Source: Brenneria sp. hezel4-2-4 (GTDB taxonomy: Bacteria > Pseudomonadota > Gammaproteobacteria > Enterobacterales > Enterobacteriaceae). Taken from it: a stretch of DNA of 64,000 nt. The stretch is taken from assembly GCF_013155275.1 (NCBI RefSeq), contig NZ_JABJXS010000001.1:186001-250000 (forward strand), given 5' to 3'. Below, in pieces: positions 39,245 to 58,141 of this stretch. The notes beneath the pieces are model-generated. The model did no database searches and was not told where the DNA came from. It was given only the letters and a program-made list of their open reading frames with translations. The position numbers and the translations under genes were made by a program. The stretch's first letter is position 1. Each line of letters begins with the position of its first letter.

Positions 39245-39668
39245 AATACCCGTCATACTTCAAGTTGCAGGCGCGTTGGCTTTATCACTCGGCCCCTCTA
39301 TGGGCCTCGCCCCGTTGGGGCCGCTGCAAGCAGCGTTCAAATCTACCTCAGGCAGATTTGAGATTGCTAACAAAATCGTCTGTAAGCCCGAGATACCCGG
39401 GCCTACCGTACCGAGGGGCGCTCCGGCGGCTTACGCCGCTACGGCCCCTCGCCACACTCTCCCTAATAACGGGCTTTGTCAATGGACTGAAATCAGCCCC
39501 AGGCAGATTTGTCGCTCACCCCGATCGCTCACGGGCGTAAGCTCCCGGGGATGAATGAGAGACATCCGGTCTCTCACCGCAGGCCAGCCGTTGGCTGGTC
39601 AAATTCGTTCCCGACGAATTTGTCGCGGTGTCGCCGCCTTGCTGCAACTCGAATTATTTAGTGTATAT
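39245..39668. repeat. Intergenic repeat element rich in hairpins (copy 1)
   Basis: The rlmA-cspC spacer (538 bp) is mostly filled by a GC-rich element of about 420 bp. Its ends form an imperfect inverted repeat: ATACTTCAAGTTGCAG at the left and the complement of ATAATTCGAGTTGCAG at the right. Inside are a series of short hairpins and two blocks (39392-39418 and 39424-39484) nearly identical to blocks at 57946-57972 and 58051-58111. No protein is encoded. It looks like a dispersed chromosomal repeat of this genome. Confidence 0.8.
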
Positions 39669-44470: not shown

Positions 44471-44489
44471 CCGGCGGTTCTCTGCCGGT
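44471..44489 (+). terminator. Hairpin after sitD, first copy
   Basis: CCGGCGGTTCTCTGCCGGT folds into a short GC stem. A nearly identical sequence with one change lies at 44655-44673. Without a T run it is probably a partial terminator. Confidence 0.55.
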
Positions 44490-44523
44490 CAGACCGTTGA
44501 CTAACCTATTACCCTTTATTGAA

Positions 44524-44628
44524 CGGTAATAATGGAATGGAAGAGTAAAGCGTCCGCGCCAGGGATGGCGCGGTTCGAGCTTACAAGGATGTACTTGCAG
44601 CGTCTTTACGATCCATCCATCATTACCG
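44524..44628. repeat. Cloverleaf-like inverted repeat downstream of sitD
   Basis: The ends CGGTAATAATGGAATGGA and TCCATCCATCATTACCG form a long imperfect stem of about 28 bp continued by GTAAAGCG/CGTCTTTAC. Within it, CGCGCCAGGGATGGCGCG and TACAAGGATGTA make two further hairpins, giving a three-arm structure of 105 bp. No protein is encoded. The form suggests a small dispersed repeat. The rest of the 402-bp sitD-yniA spacer holds the two hairpins described and a yniA promoter region. Confidence 0.75.
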
Positions 44629-44654
44629 CTCACCGGACTTTGTCAGCAAACTCA

Positions 44655-44673
44655 CCGGCGGTTCTCCGCCGGT
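44655..44673 (+). terminator. Hairpin downstream of sitD, second copy
   Basis: CCGGCGGTTCTCCGCCGGT, a perfect version of the hairpin at 44471-44489, followed by TTCGCTTTT. It is the better terminator candidate of the two. Confidence 0.65.
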
Positions 44674-56519: not shown

Positions 56520-57914
56520 ATGAATTTTCCGCTGCTGTTAAATATTTTGGCGTTTGCCGCACTGCTGCTTTTAGTGGGATACGCCAGCAAAGGCAAGTCA
56601 TGGAGCCTGGCAAAAAAAGTTTTGCTGGGTCTGGTTATCGGGGTTCTGTTTGGTCTGGCCCTACACCTGATCTACGGCGGCGATAACCCGGTTATCAGCC
56701 AATCGGTCGCCTGGTTTAATATCGTCGGCAACGGCTACGTGCAACTGTTGCAGATGATTGTTATGCCGCTGGTATTTGTTTCCATCCTGAACTCGGTCGC
56801 CAAGCTGCATAATGCCTCGTCGTTGGGGAAAATCAGCGTATTAACGCTGGCTACCCTGTTATTTACCACGCTGATTGCCGCGCTGGTCGGGGTTTTCGTG
56901 ACCAATCTGTTCGGGTTGACGGCAACTGGACTGGTGCAGGGCGCGCAGGAAACCGCCCGCTTGTCGGCCATCGAAAATAACTACGCGGGCAAGGTTGCCG
57001 ATCTGAGCATCCCGCAGATCATTCTTTCCTTTATTCCTAAAAACCCGTTTGCCGAACTGACCGGCGCCAATCCCACGTCGATTATCAGCGTCGTTGTTTT
57101 TGCCGTCTTCCTCGGCGTTGCCGCGCTGCAACTGATGAAAGACGACGCCGCCAAAGGCGAGCGGATCCTGGTTGCCATTGATACCTTGCAATCCTGGGTG
57201 ATGAAACTGGTTCGTCTGGTGATGAAACTGACCCCGTACGGGGTATTGGCGTTAATGACCAAGATGGTGGCCAGCTCCAACCTGCAAGATATCCTCAAGC
57301 TAGGGAGCTTTGTGGTGGCGTCTTATTTGGGTCTGGCTATCATGTTCGGCGTTCATGCGCTGATTCTGTCGCTGACCGGCATTAATCCTGCCCGGTTTTT
57401 CCGTAAGGTATGGCCGGTGCTGACATTTGCCTTTACCAGCCGTTCCAGCGCCGCCACCATCCCACTGAGCATCGAAGCGCAAACCCGCCGTATCGGCGTA
57501 CCGGAATCCATCGCCAGCTTTGCCGCCTCATTTGGCACCACTATCGGCCAGAATGGCTGCGCCGGACTTTATCCCGCCATGCTGGCGGTGATGGTCGCTC
57601 CGACGGTGGGGATTAATCCGCTCGATCCGGTATGGATTGCCACGCTGGTCGGGATTGTCACCATCAGTTCGGCAGGGGTGGCCGGCGTCGGCGGCGGCGC
57701 AACCTTTGCCGCGCTGATCGTTCTGCCGGCAATGGGGCTGCCGGTTACCCTGGTTGCTTTGCTGATTTCTATTGAGCCATTGATTGATATGGGACGTACG
57801 GCGTTGAATGTAAGCGGTTCAATGACCGCGGGCACGGTCACCAGTCAGTTATTGAAGCAAACGGATAAAACCGTGTTTGATGCGCAGGAAGAAGCCGAGT
57901 TGGCGCATCGATAA
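56520..57914 (+). CDS. tcyP: L-cystine transporter TcyP
   Basis: A 464-residue sodium:dicarboxylate-symporter-fold protein, closely similar to E. coli TcyP (YdjN), which imports L-cystine. About eight hydrophobic segments plus re-entrant loops; the serine-rich loop [13 protein letters not shown] (about residues 303-315) and [14 protein letters not shown] are typical. The ATG at 56520 follows GGGAG; a GTG two codons upstream is possible. Confidence 0.94.
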
Positions 57915-57935
57915 CATTAAATAAAACGATAAGGC

Positions 57936-58118
57936 GTCGGTAAGCGATACCCGGGCCTAGCGTACCGAGGGGCCATTATGGGACACATCCTTGTGCCCCA
58001 CCCTGCGGGCCAGCATAAATGCTGTTTAAATTTGCTCCTGGCAAATTTGTCGGCGGCTTACGCCGCTACGGCCCCTCGCCACGCTCTCCCTAATAACAGG
58101 CGTTGTCAATGTCGGTAA
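57936..58118. repeat. Small inserted repeat with 8-bp direct repeats (copy 2)
   Basis: A 167-bp segment (57944-58110) lies between two copies of GTCGGTAA (57936-57943 and 58111-58118). Removing it and one copy restores a perfect hairpin, GGCGTCGGTAA-TGAT-TTACCGACGCC, apparently the tcyP terminator. The segment shares two blocks (27 and 61 bp) with the element at 39245-39668. This looks like an insertion with target duplication, although no terminal inverted repeats or transposase are seen. Confidence 0.75.
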
Positions 58119-58141
58119 TGATTTACCGACGCCTCTTACGA

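Follow-up and report, generated by a model that had tools for sequence, protein, structure and literature searches.

A decayed miniature element in a terminator hairpin of Brenneria and its possible mobilisation by IS1182-type transposases

An interrupted terminator downstream of a symporter gene

The window analysed here, meaning the whole 64-kb stretch at positions 186,001-250,000 of contig NZ_JABJXS010000001.1 of Brenneria sp. hezel4-2-4 (genome label G000), carries a sodium:dicarboxylate symporter gene whose terminator hairpin is interrupted by a 167-bp segment. Direct reading located the 8-mer GTCGGTAA at 57936-57943 and again at 58111-58118, with the 167 bp between them, and the outer arms AGGCGTCGGTAA and TTACCGACGCCT (58123-58134) form a perfect 12-bp inverted repeat. 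Because these outer arms are perfectly complementary, taking out the segment together with one 8-mer leaves a single hairpin. The initial annotation had already remarked on both the repeat and the restored hairpin, and it was also right to caution that the 8 bp make up one half of a natural hairpin.

That annotation had also proposed looking for an empty site in related strains. Within the genus (nine Brenneria genomes, the own genome included), the symporter gene was present in seven relatives, six of which (G001-G006) could be read beyond the gene end; the match in G008 ends at residue 348, and G007 yielded no match to the gene. Inspected by eye, all six readable relatives have a single uninterrupted hairpin and no element at the gene end. 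In G006 this hairpin is bordered by almost the same sequence, AAAACGATAAGG...ACCGGCACCTTAC, as in the window. A motif check of these sites returned one match (L139) to the 12-base end motif with two mismatches allowed, which is not an element because the same stretch, CATAGCTGACAAA, also lies ~900 bp off in the flank of the site in the window itself. Because the relatives have an empty site, the segment is an insertion.

Alignment of the segment with the 205-bp form of a repeat that recurs in this genome (see below) revealed that positions 1-27, 30-33 and 199-205 are missing, and 205 - 38 indeed gives 167. Judged from this alignment, the segment is a truncated, decayed copy of the 205-bp element, which is without terminal inverted repeats because both element ends are missing. 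The flanking 8 bp are best read as the remnant of a longer duplication that comprised the whole hairpin. A 9-bp word, CGTCGGTAA, lies in the hairpin arm and is also present in the intact copies L013, L022 and L027, as CGTCGGTAAGC near their left end; a 9-mer common to a shuffled arm and the first 45 bp of the L013 element turned up in 33 of 20000 trials.

A repeat family with YPAL ends and hairpin-length duplications

The segment matched 44 pieces of its own genome, of which seven, counting the window copy, are close to full length; 26 own-genome loci, again with the window copy among them, were fetched. These included six long copies of 205-206 bp (L009-L014) and fifteen short copies of 131-132 bp (L015-L029), the latter being the same element minus a 73-bp inner part, next to one 96-bp copy (L032) and three loci without a recognisable second end (L030, L031 and L033). 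The element encodes no transposase. As judged by alignment, two-ended copies carry terminal inverted repeats, so that the absence of such repeats reported in the initial annotation holds for the window copy but not for the family. The blocks it reported as shared with the spacer at 39392-39484 are real, since this spacer holds a 132-bp short form, and with 44 matching pieces in the genome such sharing exceeds chance. Its suspicion of a non-autonomous mobile element in a terminator, here found to be multicopy, was supported.

Matching pieces numbered 54 in G001 and 51 in G005. At 1e-10 or better, the 205-bp form matched 16 of the 295 genomes sampled in the bacterial family, from 10 of 154 genera (own genus included), and the plasmid collection contained only two relatives of the element. 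As RNA, the 205-nt element folds strongly, with -83.8 kcal/mol (z -4.5), and the window copy with its flanks reaches z -6.9; two shorter pieces were unremarkable (z -1.5 and -1.4). Known RNA families were rejected as an identity for the 205-bp element, with loose-threshold matches to rsmX and sR035 falling far under their gathering scores. No earlier description fitting the 205-bp family by title or abstract was found in the literature searched, which did not reach the original YPAL paper (De Gregorio 2006), where a prior statement is possible. 'Kristensenii39' (142 bp), an entry in a table of PMC2847712, might be the short form. The copies L010 (G000:C6) and L009 (G000:C7) have identical elements and flanks on two contigs, reflecting either a duplication or an assembly artefact.

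Hairpin targeting and the YPAL repeat are already known: according to the available text of PMC2229807, YPAL/RU-2 (~167-168 bp) lands at dyad symmetries or directly beside them and is flanked by variable duplications of 3-26 bp. The window contains a YPAL-type element of its own, whose site is empty in 8/8 relatives when read by eye; a loose motif check there gave two short matches (L154 and L158) with no element in the sequence read, which we have taken for chance. An own-genome YPAL copy and the Y. pestis RU-2 sequence, as given in the accessible part of PMC2759123, were identical at 129 of 163 aligned bases. The Rfam family 'Yersinia sRNA 224' (Ysr224) is part of YPAL, and because its consensus starts with the YPAL end, Ysr224 matches mark a mobile repeat. 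At Rfam gathering scores, the known RNA families in the window were cspA, Ysr224 and a manganese riboswitch.

Intact 205-bp and 132-bp copies have the YPAL terminal sequences, TGAGGTT..TGACAAAG and TTTGTCA..GTCTGA, and like YPAL they lie at dyad symmetries with a variable duplication (13 of the 21 two-ended copies of the family). Their interiors differ from it: compared with own-genome YPAL, the interior of the 205-bp form scored at shuffle level (86 of 200 interior shuffles reached its score), as did that of the 132-bp form (69 of 200). Against Y. pestis RU-2, the alignment score of the 205-bp form was reached by 1/200 shuffles, a marginal result. A search for the Ysr224 core in 11 loci of the family (L009-L018 and L034), at E up to 0.1, found only a separate YPAL beside the L012 copy. 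By these sequence comparisons, YPAL and the 205/132-bp family share ends and target, not interiors. Identifying the window segment as YPAL by virtue of its 167 bp was rejected, as its interior differs and its length is a coincidence of truncation, unrelated to that of YPAL.

Target duplications were scored as the best ungapped repeat (score of at least 10) in the flanks of 31 two-ended own-genome elements, being 21 of the 205/132-bp family and 10 of YPAL type. L009 (identical to L010) and L030, L031, L033 and the window copy (not two-ended) were left out. The YPAL-type elements had been found by their right-end motif; L052 and L061 repeat L032 and L023, and L060, L062 and L063 are end-motif matches without an element. 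A duplication of 15-22 bp (median 18) flanked 23 of the 31 elements, including all ten of YPAL type and 13 of the 21 others, and in each of these 23 the midpoint of the duplication lay no more than 1 nt from the centre of its best stem (4-9 pairs). Pairing the flanks of different copies reached the score in only 5 of 930 cases. The duplicated unit is therefore the whole hairpin, and the 8-bp target duplication proposed in the initial annotation was not borne out. T-rich stretches stand 3' of the right hairpin in 22/31 elements (5/31 further out) and A-rich stretches before the left hairpin in 15/31 (8/31 further out), and many of the duplicated hairpins look like terminators. Copies from two further genera (L143 and L145) have clean duplications as well.

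A candidate mover and competing explanations

Transposases of the IS1182 family of insertion sequences (IS; profile NF033551) had a match in 23 of 59 relatives, three of them above the curated cut-off. The full Brenneria copy L065 (in G002) starts with TCAGACTGATGACAAAGTC and ends with GGGTTCGTCAGCAATCTGA, and the hairpins on its two sides differ; most of the IS1182 relatives fetched from plasmids or genomes have like ends. Of 1242 plasmid records with an IS1182 relative, seven were fetched; the loci measured exclude L072, a fragment, and L130-L132, which lie at contig ends. The flank test started from 36 loci, of which four were dropped for a missing end and 32 were measured at a score of at least 12. 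A duplicated hairpin of 14-26 bp flanked 17 of these 32 copies. Mismatched flanks reached the score in 7 of 992 pairs, the best of them scoring 28 because near-identical sites were present.

Two copies of Photorhabdus thracensis without a duplication (L123 and L125) carry each other's flanking hairpins, and this exchange points to recombination between copies. Beside the L098 copy on a Salmonella plasmid (CP053580.1), one hairpin has the loop TCT and the other its reverse complement AGA, which looks as though one of the two had been flipped.

Seven element ends (from the 205-bp form, the 132-bp form, Brenneria YPAL and Y. pestis YPAL) were compared with both ends of ten IS1182 copies hand-picked from the 32 measured. 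In register, the best matches amounted to 15-18 of 19 positions and the worst to 10-13, with the best match on the same side in all seven cases and the right end of Y. pestis YPAL at 18/19. Shuffling each end 5000 times never gave a match as good as the best one, a control that flatters the result because the patterns used to find the IS1182 ends were themselves similar to the element ends. Stronger, independent support comes from the IS1182 ends abutting duplicated hairpins. Considered as partner of a miniature inverted-repeat transposable element (MITE), the IS1182 type of Enterobacterales (~1.6 kb) thus has terminal sequences similar, though not identical, to those of our element and duplicates the whole terminator hairpin as well; it differs in encoding a transposase (NF033551; Pfam DUF772 and DDE_Tnp_1_6). 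Literature joining 'YPAL' and 'IS1182' was not found in the searches made, which did not cover De Gregorio 2006.

Taken together, the window segment is probably a decayed YPAL-like miniature element that owed its mobility to an IS1182 transposase supplied in trans and working at the feet of terminator hairpins. On this sequence-based model, a miniature inverted-repeat element (205 bp in full, 132 bp in its short form) with YPAL ends and, less exactly, enterobacterial IS1182 ends would be acted on by an IS1182-type DDE transposase, which would join the 3' ends of the element to the 5' feet of a presumably extruded terminator hairpin. Gap repair would then leave a complete hairpin on each side, and hence a target duplication as long as the hairpin. 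Gene ends would be spared, with the element becoming 3' untranslated RNA between two hairpins, and because the T-run stays on the far side, RNA of the upstream gene should pass the first hairpin and the element before meeting the second hairpin. In the reconstructed order of events, trimming would have come later. On the left, the 9-bp word CGTCGGTAA occurs both in the arm of the left hairpin and in the element; a deletion between these two occurrences and a further 4-bp deletion would have taken the left element end together with one half of the left hairpin. On the right, a deletion of ~11 bp would have taken the right element end. The pair of GTCGGTAA words would then be the overlap of two trimmed hairpin copies.

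Precedents exist among staphylococcal members of the IS1182 family. According to the available sections of PMC4923244 and PMC5678879, IS1272 and TnSha1 also target hairpins, among them several terminators, and recognise shape rather than sequence; unlike our elements, they remove or cut the hairpin and leave no duplication. For IS1272, hairpin replacement was proposed, and duplication of the whole stem-loop was drawn as a hypothetical pathway b in 2017 (PMC5678879, as far as available), whereas partial hairpin deletion was reported for TnSha1 (in the accessible part of PMC4923244). The pattern seen in the Brenneria elements fits pathway b as sketched in that available text. A wider proposal would be that enterobacterial IS1182 transposases use the extruded terminator hairpin as a ruler and join at its two feet, so that the duplication equals a hairpin of any length or sequence, and that this counterpart of the replacing mode of IS1272 gave rise to the YPAL and 205/132-bp families; on this we are evenly divided.

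Other explanations were weighed against the same data. A 167-bp element without inverted repeats that duplicated 8 bp on insertion would account for the 8-bp direct repeat, the restored hairpin and the empty site in relatives, but is highly improbable: by eye, none of the other 25 fetched loci starts or stops as the window copy does, intact copies reach beyond it by 27 bp on the left and 7 bp on the right and have inverted repeats, and clean duplications elsewhere measure 15-22 bp. Truncation might instead have occurred during insertion, through a defective element or a partial hairpin loss of the kind known from IS1272 and TnSha1, in which case the 8 bp would never have been part of a longer duplication. 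That L020, L028 and L032 also retain just half of the left hairpin speaks for this possibility; however, the window copy misses both ends, and its left joint falls on the 9-bp word that the hairpin arm has in common with the inner part of intact copies, as a later deletion would predict. Truncation upon insertion is held to be unlikely.

The mover might also belong to another hairpin-duplicating transposase family, such as the IS30 type. The precedent is IS1630 of Mycoplasma fermentans, an IS30-type element that targets and duplicates inverted repeats according to the title of its paper, and for which the accessible part of PMC3317919 gives duplications of 16-26 bp in 4/7 complete copies. Its transposase is of another family than that of IS1182, and its likeness to our elements is in the duplication habit. 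Since the element ends match those of enterobacterial IS1182 at 15-18/19 positions in a comparison confined to IS1182 ends, and IS1182 copies show the same duplication, we regard such a mover as decidedly unlikely.

Besides the flattered shuffle control, a number of points weigh against mobilisation of a YPAL-like element by IS1182. IS1182 was the only IS family compared as partner; its studied staphylococcal members IS1272 and TnSha1, as described above, do not duplicate their target. The sole full Brenneria copy, L065, has one stop codon, and other matches are fragments or weak. At the set score, 15 of the 32 IS1182 copies are without a duplication, and three of the 17 with one (L117, L119 and L122) look like copies of one site. 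At E 1e-10, no IS1182 relative was found in 11 of the 12 element-carrying genomes searched, G000, G001 and G005 included; only G303 (taken as Serratia sp. Ag1) has the transposase, in two uninterrupted copies, and the partner may have been lost from the other carriers or lie in a gap of their draft assemblies. Copies without a flanking duplication, which the initial annotation had named as grounds for refuting its reading, make up only eight of the 31 own elements: by eye, the hairpin stands on both sides in altered form in L019, L021 and L022, its left copy is reduced to a half in L020, L028 and L032, and no duplication at all is seen in L011 and L023 (L023 adjoining the end of another element). 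In G001 and G005, 11 copies read by eye show fewer clean duplications, and an intact element at the symporter-gene site was absent from the genomes examined. Finally, sequence demonstrates the family, its ends, the hairpin-length duplication and the empty sites; movement was not among the observations.

Mobilisation by IS1182 would provide YPAL, known since the 2006 paper, with a concrete and testable mover, indicated by matching ends and hairpin duplication. Our data would likewise be sequence evidence for the stem-loop duplication that, in the available part of the 2017 IS1272 paper (PMC5678879), is only sketched, and raise the question how replacement and duplication of the target can both occur within a single transposase family. 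On the wider proposal, gene ends would be home to miniature families that leave a terminator in place. For annotation, two like terminator hairpins 130-205 bp apart are a sign of these elements, and Ysr224 marks YPAL.

Further repeats in the window and the genome

Coordinates of the symporter locus and of the two other repeat copies in the window are compiled below.

Table 1. Positions in the window of the interrupted terminator, its upstream gene and further repeat copies
Feature	Position	Strand	Evidence or remark
Upstream gene, sodium:dicarboxylate symporter (SDF) family (tcyP in the initial annotation)	56520..57914	+	Pfam SDF 5.7e-107
5' arm of the original terminator hairpin (AGGCGTCGGTAA), read as remnant of the left hairpin copy	57932..57943		Perfect complement of 58123-58134; relatives with one hairpin
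Truncated copy of the 205-bp element	57944..58110	+	Alignment with six 205/206-bp copies
Right hairpin copy, complete except for its expected first 4 bases (AGGC)	58111..58134		Sequence reading; comparison with relatives
Second window copy, 132-bp short form with both ends (L024)	39359..39490	+	Alignment, flank measurement
Left target duplication of the 132-bp copy (AATCTACCTCAGGCAGATT; right copy 39491-39509)	39340..39358		19 bp, 3 mismatches
YPAL-type element, 166 bp	44489..44654	-	Rfam Ysr224, 82.2 bits at 44547-44653
Hairpin duplication beside the YPAL copy (CCGGCGGAGAACCGCCGG; other copy 44471-44488; L058)	44655..44672		18 bp, 1 mismatch

Elsewhere in the genome, L012/L050 (G000:C12:4593-4978) combines a 206-bp copy with a YPAL copy in tandem; the hairpin GGCCGCGTAAGCGGCC lies between the two and also next to them, so one terminator was probably hit twice.

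ERIC/RU-1 resembles our element in being a short enterobacterial intergenic palindromic repeat. Its target is TA. Its ends differ from those of the element in a by-eye comparison made with RU-1 only, and Rfam scans gave no ERIC match to the element, no formal ERIC search having been made. The 132-bp window copy, flanked by its imperfect 19-bp duplication, sits within an ERIC-like (RU-1) stretch at ~39247-39665, judged by two end motifs (39258 and 39642). Inside the long form, a module of 78 bp (57974-58051) is 70% identical to 39555-39624 within that stretch, with a local score of 64 against 40 for the best of 300 shuffles, and this match indicates that the two repeat families share a module.
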